Below are positions 7,988-16,577 of a stretch of 22,725 nt of DNA, piece after piece. The notes under the pieces are model-generated. The model made no database searches. It was not told the DNA's origin and saw only the letters and a list, made by a program, of their open reading frames with translations. This DNA is from a virus. The position numbers and the translations under genes are program-made. Location of the stretch: the IMG/VR virus record IMGVR_UViG_3300030012_000839, positions 646-23,370 of that record; one strand, given 5' to 3'. The first letter of the stretch is position 1. Every line of letters starts with the position of its first letter.

Positions 7988-8175
7988 AAGAGAAAAAAGA
8001 ATGGAAAGAATTTAAAGCCAACGTTAAAAGTAGGTTGACACAAGATCAATATAAGCTATTATGTAGGTTACACGCTAAATATTACAAGCATAATTACCAT
8101 GAGCCTTGTAGTTGCAACCCGAAAAGACTACTGCAATGGATATCAGATATTGATAAAGTATATGAAAAGTGTTAA
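7978..8175 (+). CDS. small Cys-containing hypothetical protein
   Basis: A 65-residue protein; the part HEPCSCNPKRLLQWISDIDK (about 41-60) again carries a CxC pair as in the overlapping upstream gene, followed by an amphipathic helix. Similar short proteins accompany the CGCDKR protein in other flavobacterial phages, so the two may act together. Its stop codon lies inside the 26-bp repeat that begins at 8170. Confidence 0.6.
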   Translation: MEIEEKKEWKEFKANVKSRLTQDQYKLLCRLHAKYYKHNYHEPCSCNPKRLLQWISDIDKVYEKC

Positions 8176-8195
8176 AGTTTTGTTAAAATAGTTAA
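8170..8195. repeat. 26-bp direct repeat, copy 1 (putative regulator site)
   Basis: Bases 8170-8195 are identical to 15600-15625. Within it TGTTAAA occurs twice, 11 bp apart (8170, 8181), then AGTTAA at 8190. The copy starts 55 bases before the -7 box at 8225; the other copy starts 54 bases before its own -7 box. The fixed distance fits a binding site for an activator or repressor acting at both promoters. Confidence 0.7.
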
Positions 8196-8220
8196 GAAAT
8201 AGTTCATAACGTCCAATTAT

Positions 8221-14105: not shown

Positions 14106-14457
14106 CAAAACTGAACAACATAAAAAAGCTATATTGTTAGCTTTAGAGAGATCCTTAGGTGTGGTAACAGAAGCTTGTAGAAAAGTAGGCGTAGGTAGAA
14201 CAACGTTTTATGGTTGGTTGAAAGATGATGAAGAGTTCGCTGCTCAGGTGAAGGACGTGCAGGATATTGCGTTAGACTTTGTTGAGTCTAAGTTATTTGA
14301 GAACATTAGGGATGGCAAGACGAGCGAGATGATATTTTACTTAAAGACAAAAGGAAAGTCACGTGGTTACATTGAAAGACAAGAGATAACAGGCGCAGAC
14401 GGTTTACCAAACAACTTTAAAGTGGAGATCATTGACAGCACAAAAAATACAGACTAA
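14101..14457 (+). CDS. terS: terminase small subunit
   Basis: The 118-residue protein has an N-terminal helix-turn-helix (GVVTEACRKVGVGRTTFYGW, about 20-39) followed by a helical oligomerisation region (FVESKLFENIRDGKTSEMIF) and FYLKTKGKSRGYIERQEITG, a stretch typical of TerS proteins in Bacteroidota phages. It would bind the packaging site and pass DNA to the large subunit encoded directly after it. The ATG sits in the repeated 20-base start element. Confidence 0.85.
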   Translation: MNKTEQHKKAILLALERSLGVVTEACRKVGVGRTTFYGWLKDDEEFAAQVKDVQDIALDFVESKLFENIRDGKTSEMIFYLKTKGKSRGYIERQEITGADGLPNNFKVEIIDSTKNTD

Positions 14458-15598
14458 CATTGTCTACAAACACTTATTAAATAGCCAACAGAAAATAGTA
14501 GTCCAACAAGGAGGTACACGTAGCGGCAAAACCTACAACGTACTATTGTTTATTATATTTGAATACTGTTTAAAGCAAAGAGACAAAACAATCACTATAT
14601 GTAGAAAGACATTCCCAAGTGTTAGAGCTACAGTGATGCGTGACTTCATAACCATACTTAGACAATATGGACTATATAGAGAAGAGCACCACAATAAGTC
14701 CAATAGCGAATACAAGTTAAACAACAACCTTATCGAGTTTATTAGCGTTGATCAACCACAAAAGATCAGAGGACGTAAACGTGATATATTGTTTATCAAT
14801 GAAGCTAATGAGCTAGACTTCGAAGACTGGCAACAGTTAGTATTTAGAACACAAGAAAAAATCATATTAGACTACAACCCTTCAGATGAGTATCACTGGA
14901 TTTACGATAAGGTATTGGTTAGAGAAGACGTGGAGTTTTATAAGACTACTTATTTGGATAACCCTTTTTTAGAGAAGTCTATAGTGAAGGAAATAGAACT
15001 ACTTAGAGAAACAGATGAGCAATATTGGCAGATATACGGATTAGGTTTAAAGGGTATGAGTAAAGCAACTATATTTACTTATGTTGAGGTACCACACGTT
15101 CCACACGATGCTGAGTTAGTTAGTTACGGGGCAGATGCTGGATATACAAACGATCCAAGCACTCTAGTGAGTGTTTACAAGAAAGACCATAACTTATATA
15201 TAAAGGAACATTTGTACAGGACCATGATGACTACAAGGGATCTAAGTGATCATTTTAAAGAAGTAATAGAGAACAAACGTAGTCCAGTTTATTTTGATGC
15301 AGCTGAGCCTAGACTGATAGATGAACTAAGGAGAATGGGACATAACATACAACCAAGCTTGAAAGGCAGAGACTCTATAAACGCAGGTATTGATTTATTA
15401 AAGAGATATAAGATACATGTAACAAGCGATAGCGATAATGCTATTAGGGAATTTAGAAACTATAAATGGTTAGAAGACAAGACAGGTAAATTAACCAATA
15501 AGCCAGTAGATAAAAACAATCATATAATAGATGCTGTACGCTATGCTACATATTCAATAATGAGTAGGCCAAACTTTGGTAGGTATGCGGTACACTAA
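14432..15598 (+). CDS. terL: terminase large subunit
   Basis: The 388-residue packaging motor and nuclease has Walker A GGTRSGKT (27-34), a Walker B region KRDILFINEA (116-125) with E124 as the likely catalytic Glu, and RNase H-like nuclease acids D235 (YGADAGYT), D289 (VYFDAAEP) and D367 (NHIIDAVRYA). No ATG lies upstream of Walker A, so the start is probably TTG at 14432, 26 bases inside the small-subunit gene. GGAG at 14424-14427 gives one of the few Shine-Dalgarno-like sequences in the window. Another non-ATG start a few codons on is possible. The non-coding leader region follows. Confidence 0.9.
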   Translation: MTAQKIQTNIVYKHLLNSQQKIVVQQGGTRSGKTYNVLLFIIFEYCLKQRDKTITICRKTFPSVRATVMRDFITILRQYGLYREEHHNKSNSEYKLNNNLIEFISVDQPQKIRGRKRDILFINEANELDFEDWQQLVFRTQEKIILDYNPSDEYHWIYDKVLVREDVEFYKTTYLDNPFLEKSIVKEIELLRETDEQYWQIYGLGLKGMSKATIFTYVEVPHVPHDAELVSYGADAGYTNDPSTLVSVYKKDHNLYIKEHLYRTMMTTRDLSDHFKEVIENKRSPVYFDAAEPRLIDELRRMGHNIQPSLKGRDSINAGIDLLKRYKIHVTSDSDNAIREFRNYKWLEDKTGKLTNKPVDKNNHIIDAVRYATYSIMSRPNFGRYAVH

Positions 15599-15599
15599 A

Positions 15600-15625
15600 T
15601 GTTAAAGTTTTGTTAAAATAGTTAA
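15600..15625. repeat. 26-bp direct repeat, copy 2 (putative regulator site)
   Basis: Identical to 8170-8195. Here a further GTTAA follows at 15632, so GTTAA motifs occur at 15601, 15612, 15621 and 15632, mostly 9-11 bp apart. It starts two bases after the terL stop codon and 54 bases upstream of the -7 box at 15654, the same geometry as copy 1. Confidence 0.7.
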
Positions 15626-15653
15626 TAATTGGTTAAGAACACATAAATTGTAG

Positions 15654-15661
15654 TATATTTG
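15654..15661 (+). promoter_or_regulatory. promoter -7 box TATATTTG upstream of the leader RNA
   Basis: A perfect TAnnTTTG box; TTG at 15629-15631 lies roughly where a -33 element is expected, though the spacing is a few bases long. Transcription would start near 15665, at an inverted repeat (ATGTAC 15664-15669 / GTACAT 15677-15682) that could be an operator or the first RNA hairpin. No gene lies between it and the terminator at 15856. Confidence 0.65.
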
Positions 15662-15664
15662 TAA

Positions 15665-15884
15665 TGTACAATAATAGTACATACGTTCTTTAAAATACCG
15701 ATAAGCATTAATAAATAAGTATTGTTGAAGTATATGAAATAATCAACCTTATTAAAAGTGTTTCTTAAATAGTATGAATATGTATTGGTGGAGTTTATGA
15801 AATAACCACCCATTAGTAAAAGGTTTAAGATAGGTATTTTAATATTCTATAAACTAACCCTTACAGACGTGTAGGGGTTTTTTT
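15665..15884 (+). ncRNA. candidate structured leader RNA with two paralogous stem-loops
   Basis: This gap has no credible ORF but ordered structure: hairpin 15664-15682; stem-loop 1 GTTGA (15724-15728) / TCAAC (15743-15747); stem-loop 2 GGTGG (15787-15791) / CCACC (15806-15810); terminator hairpin 15856-15879. The two middle units are 63 nt apart and share GTATTG on the left and the loop AGT(A/T)TATGAAATAA. Their stems differ at two of five pairs, each by a compensatory change (T-A to G-C and A-T to G-C). Stem-loop 1 can extend by AATAAG (15714-15719) with CTTATT (15748-15753), leaving a TATT bulge; stem-loop 2 by ATG/CAT, with the same bulge. It may be a regulatory leader (antitermination or attenuation) or a stable small RNA. 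Confidence 0.6.
15856..15884 (+). terminator. strong intrinsic terminator before the tail operon
   Basis: AACCCTTACA (15856-15865) pairs over 10 bp, with one G-U pair, with TGTAGGGGTT (15870-15879) around a GACG loop, followed by T through 15884. It would stop both terL read-through and the leader RNA, so the tail genes need their own promoter (15906 element) or antitermination. Confidence 0.85.
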
Positions 15885-15905
15885 ATGTCTAAAAATTATT
15901 AATTT

Positions 15906-15925
15906 TGTTTATATATAAGTATGAA
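15906..15925 (+). promoter_or_regulatory. late-gene start element, copy 2
   Basis: Identical 20 bases to 14086-14105, ending in the ATG of the tail chaperone gene. It is the only promoter-like sequence between the terminator (ends 15884) and that ATG, which strengthens the idea that it is a late promoter. Confidence 0.6.
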
Positions 15926-16577
15926 AGTTAATTTAAGAATACCAACAAGCTTAAACGAGATAACATTAGCACAATATCAAGAGTTCGCTAAGTTAGATGG
16001 CAAGTTGGAAGATACTCACGACGCTAAGATACAATTAAAGATAGTTGAAATATTTTGTAAGGTACCAGAGATAGTAGTTAGAAACATGAAGGCTACTGAT
16101 ATTGCTGAGGTTTGTGAGATCATAAATACGATGTTCGATACTAGCCATCAACTAATAAATAAGTTCAAACTAAATGGAGTTGATTATGGTTTTATACCAG
16201 AGTTAGACGACATGAGCTTTGGTGAGTATATGGACCTAGATACTTTCATATCAGATAACGATAATTTGCACAGAGCAGTAAACGTATTATTTAGACCAAT
16301 TAAGCATATTAGAGGACATAGATACGTAATAGAAGATTATGATCCCGACTCTAGCGAGAACGCTAAGGACTTTCCCTTAGATGTAGTATTAGGTGCTATT
16401 GTTTTTTTTTACAGTTTAGGCAGGGACTTATCGATGGTTATGCTGAACTCTTTGGAAGAGAAGAACGAGAAGGCTTTGACAGAGCATCTAATTTCACAGC
16501 CAAATGGGGATGGTTTAACGCACTCTATGGAATCGCTCAAGGCGATATTACAAGATTTAAAAATATCACTGAACTAA
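15921..16577 (+). CDS. tail assembly chaperone, short (G-like) form
   Basis: The 218-residue zero-frame product begins VNLRIPTSLNEITLAQYQEF (residues 3-22) and has a conserved centre (DFPLDVVLGAIVFFYSLG, about 150-167), as in tail assembly chaperones of flavobacterial phages, which bind the tape-measure protein while the tail tube forms. At FF (codons in the T-run 16402-16410) a -1 shift gives a longer form. The zero-frame C-terminus (about 164-218, rich in Glu/Lys with NGDGL) also resembles relatives, so both products are probably real. No membrane function is implied by the FF stretch. Confidence 0.75.
   Translation: MKVNLRIPTSLNEITLAQYQEFAKLDGKLEDTHDAKIQLKIVEIFCKVPEIVVRNMKATDIAEVCEIINTMFDTSHQLINKFKLNGVDYGFIPELDDMSFGEYMDLDTFISDNDNLHRAVNVLFRPIKHIRGHRYVIEDYDPDSSENAKDFPLDVVLGAIVFFYSLGRDLSMVMLNSLEEKNEKALTEHLISQPNGDGLTHSMESLKAILQDLKISLN
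16402..16410 (+). other. programmed -1 frameshift site (T9 run)
   Basis: Nine T residues read in zero frame as GTT TTT TTT TAC contain the slippery heptamer T-TTT-TTT. The -1 frame is open from the TAA at 16364-16366 to TGA at 16661-16663 and has no ATG or GTG to start independently. This is the position and type of signal used by lambda G/GT and many siphophages. Polymerase slippage on the T-run is another route to the same product. Confidence 0.75.

Follow-up and report, generated by a model that had tools for sequence, protein, structure and literature searches.

The terL-tail gene interval

The DNA analysed here, referred to as the window, is a stretch of 22,725 nucleotides from the IMG/VR virus record IMGVR_UViG_3300030012_000839. 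Its large terminase gene (terL) and the first tail gene beyond it are separated by a gap of 322 nt (15599-15920). The preliminary description of this DNA had reported about 220 gene-less bases at this place; that length (15665-15884) belongs to an RNA transcription unit inside the gap, not to the gap itself. The features are as follows.

14432..15598, plus strand: terL (PHROG terminase large subunit, E 2.6e-43), bordering the slot on the left
15629-15631, plus strand: possible -33 element TTG, from the sequence
15654..15661, plus strand: -7 box TATATTTG (TAnnTTTG), exact match, putative promoter
15665..15681, plus strand: small hairpin TGTAC-AATAATA-GTACA, from the sequence, near the predicted 5' end of the transcript
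15685..15695, plus strand: boxA-type element GTTCTTTAAAA, perfect match to the boxA consensus
15690..15842, plus strand: two-arm RNA, a three-helix junction of ~155 nt (MFE and centroid fold, z -2.1; covariance model)
15690-15699 with 15833-15842, plus strand: closing helix P1 (window fold)
15704..15762, plus strand: arm 1, with P2 (15704-15709/15757-15762) and P3a (15714-15719/15748-15753)
Arm 1 tip, plus strand: bulge TATT 15720-15723, P3b 15724-15728/15743-15747, loop 15729-15742
15763..15830, plus strand: arm 2, with P4a (15763-15769/15824-15830) and P4b (15780-15782/15811-15813)
Arm 2 tip, plus strand: bulge TATT 15783-15786, P4c 15787-15791/15806-15810, loop 15792-15805
15856..15884, plus strand: intrinsic terminator AACCCTTACAGACGTGTAGGGGTTTTTTT (10-bp stem, 4 G-C pairs, T tract)
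15921..16577, plus strand: phrog_32199 (unknown function), first gene past the slot and its right border

The -7 box TATATTTG fits TAnnTTTG, which we take to be the -7 promoter box of Bacteroidota, and on both strands of the window it is the only such box that has GTTC[AT]T[TA] 12-45 nt downstream of it. The same -7 box is present at the matching place in the IMG/VR loci L152, L153, L165, L228 and L090, and counterparts of the 5' hairpin (GTACAAGAAATAGTAC and similar) are found in L178, L162, L197, L202, L152 and L159. Intrinsic terminators of the type seen at 15856-15884 were found once against 0.2 expected, and the same terminator occurs in cassette-bearing relatives. Since the RNA has its own promoter, and the terminator cuts it off from the tail gene, the earlier reading of this DNA as the untranslated leader of that gene had to be abandoned. 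A stand-alone transcript is predicted instead, and we consider it very likely.

Structure of the two-arm RNA

Two hairpins described previously could be read off the window as reported. Unit 1 (GTTGA-AGTATATGAAATAA-TCAAC, 15724-15747) and unit 2 (GGTGG-AGTTTATGAAATAA-CCACC, 15787-15810) lie 63 nt apart from start to start with GTATTG ahead of each, have the loop AGT(A/T)TATGAAATAA in common, carry TATT as an unpaired bulge under the stem and differ in their stems at pairs 2 and 5 (T-A to G-C and A-T to G-C). Statistics from the window by itself are weak, with four loci matching the loop within 2 mismatches against 2.25 expected by chance and a fold of the entire gap at z -1.5, and it is the relatives that supply the support by which the hairpins are confirmed. 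The two paralogous stem-loops are thus real, but they are the tips of two arms in one junction RNA of ~155 nt and not independent elements.

The arms abut directly, P2 ending at 15762 and P4a starting at 15763 with no linker between them, and in the window fold both are enclosed by P1 (UUAAAAUACC/GGUAUUUUAA), which is predicted in L165 too and is weak in L014 and L092. The bulge on each arm has the form (A/T/C)ATT and the usual loop is AGTNYAYGANAYAA. In L152, which is on the same contig as L092, a degenerate copy-like stretch beginning AAAGCATTAAGTATCTGCTGTAAGCAGTAG is located between boxA and the complete RNA at 2272; this upstream stretch is similar to arm 1 of L165, which lacks the loop (see below).

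Relatives and covariation

A search of IMG/VR with terL returned 80 loci, of which one (L014) contains the two-arm element next to terL, in the gap; both units and the 63-nt spacing are kept there, and the stems are new but complementary (GTTAG/CTAAC and GGTTG/CAACC). A pattern scan added L087, L089, L090, L091, L093 and L092, and three further pattern scans gave the same contigs plus chance matches. The covariance model built from six sequences led to L153, L156 and L165 (95 bits, E ~1e-16); a last scan brought no new contig, L273, L274 and L275 being the parents of L153, L165 and L156. In all, 11 records including the window match the model, and IMG/VR yielded ten contigs in four lineages beyond the window, making about five lineages (the window; L014; L092; the L087-L093 group; L153/L156/L165). 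Both units with 63-nt spacing and differing, complementary stems are present in L014, L092, L087, L089 and L090. Pattern matches in 22 bacterial contigs were discarded as chance, none being fully paired (at most 4/5).

The six full-length sequences align without gaps across 155 nt. In a plain MAFFT alignment of these six (A3), 99.5% of the cells are paired and 11/31 pairs show double changes, and none of 500 shuffles equalled the real pairing. Eight distinct sequences aligned by fitting to the covariance model (A5) gave 98.8% of cells paired and double changes in 14/32 pairs (33 cells), again with 0/500 shuffles as good, and sliding the register by 1-3 bases lowered the pairing to 36-50%; the count from A3 is the cleaner one because A5 was fitted to the model. 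RNAalifold recovered the same arm structure unaided. Double changes occur in arm 1 at 5/6 pairs of P3a and 4/5 of P3b, with 100% of cells paired, and in arm 2 at 2/7 pairs of P4a, 1/3 of P4b and 2/5 of P4c, with 98-100% paired. On these sequence comparisons the arms are shown to be supported by covariation, the selection for structure proposed earlier is borne out, and we regard it as practically certain that the conserved RNA is real.

Arm 2 is present in every member. In L153, L156 and L165 arm 1 terminates in a simple short hairpin that lacks the AGT loop, and arm 2 is complete, which indicates that arm 2 is the invariant part of the RNA and that paired paralogous hairpins are not obligatory. 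Stems that fail to covary, or a loop that is not kept, in related phages had been set beforehand as grounds for rejecting the element; when the relatives were compared, arm 2 survived with its loop conserved, but arm 1 had lost its loop in these three members.

The members occupy two unrelated genomic sites, namely the gap between terL and the tail gene (the window, L014, L092 and L153/L156/L165) and the region downstream of a major-capsid-like gene, where the copies of L090 and L087 lie 3' of that gene. In L087/L090 the RNA stands behind its own promoter and has a U tract at its end; another promoter serves the gene that follows. In L014 the RNA stands behind a small ORF and is without boxA. 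At L092:1546-2754 (minus strand) the TerL is clearly different from that of the window while the tail gene is 89% identical and the RNA is the same; the RNA therefore does not simply follow terL, and terL was exchanged with the RNA and the tail gene remaining linked. Just 5' of the two-arm RNA at L090:11515-11582, and also in L087, L089, L091 and L093, there is a tRNA-like fold consisting of an acceptor-like helix, an anticodon-like hairpin GGGGTGAATGCCC and a T-arm-like hairpin with the loop TGCAAGT, without a D arm; ARAGORN made no call on it, and its similarity to the tymovirus tRNA-like element in Rfam is weak and sub-threshold.

As had been supposed from the sequence, the RNA corresponds to no known family: Rfam 15 gave no match at the gathering threshold in the window or the members, the best sub-threshold match being OmrA-B over the terminator (21.2 bits vs 40 needed). 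A covariance model search of 395 Bacteroidota genomes gave no two-arm RNA, with a positive control of 6/6 phage records, and blastn gave no match for it in named phages; a blastn match in Escherichia phage tuntematon is DNA without the two-arm structure and was set aside as chance.

The boxA element

Behind the promoter, GTTCTTTAAAA fits GYTCTTTAANA, which is the boxA consensus of gamma-proteobacteria (PMC5725501). For comparison with the host type, the DNA immediately preceding 16S genes was read in Bacteroidota genomes (an order-level set), and GTTC(T/A)TTGA was found 79-124 nt before the 16S rRNA in 29/29 flavobacterial leaders (26 genomes). This reading replaced a first test of host boxA with GTTCWTTRACATATTG and GTTCWTTNAMATATT, whose matches were located close to tRNAs, at the ends of contigs and in DNA that looked coding, and not at rRNA.

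The RNA cassettes have GTTC(T/A)T(T/A) just downstream of the promoter, in the form GTTCTTTAAAA in the window, L153 and L165, GTTCTTTAACA in L092, GTTCTTAAACA in L178, L162, L166, L197, L202 and L159, and GTTCATTAAAA in L228 and L090. A promoter box followed by boxA within 12-45 nt is seen in 12/14 RNA cassettes vs 0/23 ORF cassettes (Fisher 5e-8), a p-value that is only a guide since the element had been spotted in some RNA cassettes beforehand, the pattern was broadened to take in observed variants, we ourselves assigned the cassettes to the RNA and ORF classes, and the test treats related phages as independent. We consider that the phage boxA is probably functional, and protection from Rho by it may be inferred from other bacteria; in a limited literature search we came across no account of what boxA does in Bacteroidota.

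The slot and its cargo

A survey of the DNA upstream of homologues of the first tail gene (157 loci) revealed that the slot is empty in ~90 phages, where terL and the tail gene are 24-48 nt apart, and is filled in ~40 by a cassette measuring 300-1000 nt. In most cassettes a TAnnTTTG box is present and a GGG-T6 terminator lies ~50 nt short of the tail gene. As cargo the cassettes carry a small ORF, the two-arm RNA (6 of the ~40 cassette phages found), a second covarying RNA or another gene-less stretch. L003, whose TerL is 97% identical to that of the window, has kept the promoter region of the window and carries an ORF plus the second RNA as cargo. In the Nonlabens phages P12024S/L, the nearest isolates by tail gene, terL touches the next gene and there is no cassette.

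The second RNA is 340-380 nt long and is found in L003, L197, L218, L178, L162, L166 and L202, and in L165/L153/L156 immediately 3' of the two-arm RNA. It is placed as follows.

L003:5473-5814, second RNA
L178:1414-1776, second RNA
L162:966-1336, second RNA
L197:2076-2423, second RNA
L166:1327-1706, second RNA
L202:2065-2423, second RNA
L218:2080-2423, second RNA
L165:2061-2423, second RNA

It has a long closing helix (GAATATTAAA/TTTAATATTC), shows double changes in 27/68 predicted pairs, folds at z -4.2 (L178) and has no match in Rfam or named phages. L159:2160-2425 and L228:2092-2440 hold cargo without genes, preceded by the same promoter and boxA-like element, with sequences unrelated to each other and to both RNAs; in single-sequence folds neither L228 (z -0.8) nor L159 (z -0.5) outperforms shuffles, and therefore we do not claim this cargo as structured.

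Comparison with known systems

Morons of phages are promoter-cargo-terminator units that lie between structural genes and are swapped among relatives. The unit described here is of the same kind, with its own promoter and terminator and with presence and absence among close relatives, but its cargo is a structured RNA instead of a protein gene. Among known phage RNAs, the putRNA of HK022 is an antitermination RNA of ~70 nt with two stem-loops, and shares with our RNA two adjacent long stem-loops in paralogous copies behind a promoter (PMC9378689). To suppress terminators further downstream, put engages RNA polymerase through the beta' zinc-binding domain. The two-arm RNA differs from put in its length of ~155 nt, closing helix, conserved 14-nt loops and own terminator, and we do not place it with put, the presence of two arms notwithstanding. 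Similarity to the boxA leader of rrn operons (NusB/S10/SuhB) lies in GTTCTTTAAAA, which matches both GYTCTTTAANA and the element of flavobacterial 16S leaders, and the order of boxA and closing helix recalls the rrn boxA with its leader-trailer helix (PMC10250234). Elements of the rrn type bind NusB-S10 and keep Rho from terminating transcription. The phage copy, known here from sequence, would drive a non-coding RNA and not rRNA. GOLLD and ROOL are ornate non-coding phage RNAs of unknown function, often near tRNAs (PMC12286853). The two-arm RNA is likewise phage-encoded and non-coding, and its L087/L090 members adjoin the tRNA-like fold, but it is far smaller, unrelated in sequence and without an Rfam match.

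Proposed function and alternative explanations

We favour the reading, at a probability of roughly 0.6, that the element is a stand-alone structured non-coding phage RNA carried as an exchangeable 'RNA moron' cassette. The Bacteroidota promoter at 15654 would start a transcript of ~210 nt, in whose leader the boxA of host rRNA type would probably load the NusB/S10 antitermination complex and might thereby allow an untranslated RNA to be made without Rho cutting it short. The RNA would fold into the closing helix and two arms; because it would end at its own intrinsic terminator, its transcript would not continue into the tail gene. The invariance of loop and bulge suggests recognition by a protein or RNA: the loop AGTNYAYGANAYAA together with the (A/T/C)ATT bulge, found on arm 2 and in most cases on arm 1 as well, would most likely be a binding platform for a host protein or RNA, and the RNA would then work in trans in infected cells, either as a decoy or as a regulator. 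That the element is optional, occurs at two genomic sites and alternates with unrelated cargo also suggests an accessory trans-acting product. A trans-acting cargo seems probable to us; that it is specifically a protein-binding decoy is a tentative suggestion.

The main rival is a role in cis like that of put, in which the RNA would modify the polymerase as a processive antiterminator and carry it through the 15856 terminator into the tail operon. The abutting arms with a promoter before and a terminator after them are like the two-stem-loop HK022 putRNA (PMC9378689), and boxA is itself an antitermination element. However, the RNA has 155 nt vs ~70 nt for put, members also lie past the capsid gene, at a site whose downstream gene is served by a separate promoter, and ORF cargo is found in the slot with the same terminator, so that the slot needs no antiterminator; with the terminator standing alone and most relatives lacking any cassette, we find this role unlikely. 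The close intrinsic terminator behind a structured RNA could also call to mind an attenuator or riboswitch regulating the tail operon, but neither visual inspection nor the MFE fold revealed mutually exclusive pairing of the RNA with the terminator stem, a second RNA of ~360 nt intervenes between element and terminator in L165/L153, and L087/L090 are without a G+C-rich terminator and their next gene has its own promoter, which makes such regulation very improbable.

Palindromic units in a slot with swapped cargo might act as DNA, as a recombination or packaging site. Their presence in 6 of ~40 cassette phages and absence from the ~90 empty ones shows that the RNA element is not needed for packaging or exchange, the bulges and internal loops are conserved strand-specifically and the promoter-boxA-terminator frame follows RNA logic; we give a DNA-level element hardly any credence. 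Coding of a small protein with a 21-residue repeat on the minus strand (63 nt being 21 codons) is suggested by the gapless alignment over 155 nt and by a frame that is open in the window, L014, L087, L090 and L092 (e.g. MGCYFINSTNTHSYSLRSILNALSYFIYS), but this reading is largely refuted, and its probability close to nil, as variable columns by codon position number 15/14/11 with no third-position excess, L153/L156/L165 have an in-frame stop, promoter and terminator are on the plus strand and the pair-restoring double changes alter amino acids. Several other candidates were rejected for their repeat logic, neighbours or arm order, among them an integron attC site. A CRISPR array or anti-CRISPR repeat RNA, with its identical repeats and unrelated spacers, does not agree with stems that vary between units and inter-unit sequence that is conserved across phages, nor a type III toxin-antitoxin RNA, with its tandem repeats just ahead of a toxin gene, with the neighbours terL and phrog_32199 and no extra ORF between terminator and tail gene. 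A start-stop minigene (AUG AAA UAA) is not conserved (unit 1 reads ATGAAACAA in L014 and ACGAAATAA in L087).

Few functional phage RNAs are recognized and most of them were discovered singly, while this one slot in a large group of uncultured phages holds at least two undescribed covarying RNA families, with the testable rule that a boxA of rRNA type accompanies RNA cargo and not ORF cargo. As a broader proposal, which we put forward with some reserve, phages of marine Bacteroidota may maintain a dedicated, rRNA-operon-like slot (promoter, 5' hairpin, boxA, terminator) between terL and the tail genes that exchanges several unrelated structured RNAs and at times small genes, the RNAs being effectors of host takeover or counter-defence whose synthesis borrows the rRNA antitermination machinery of the host. 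If true, RNA effectors could be drawn from the slot, and it would be an instance of phages using host rRNA antitermination to make non-coding transcripts of their own.

The DNA upstream of the RNA promoter (15600-15640) has a 41-nt copy (88%) at 8170-8210 of the window, in another gene gap. A small ORF starting from 8260 follows this copy, and the upstream element may serve a second cassette there.
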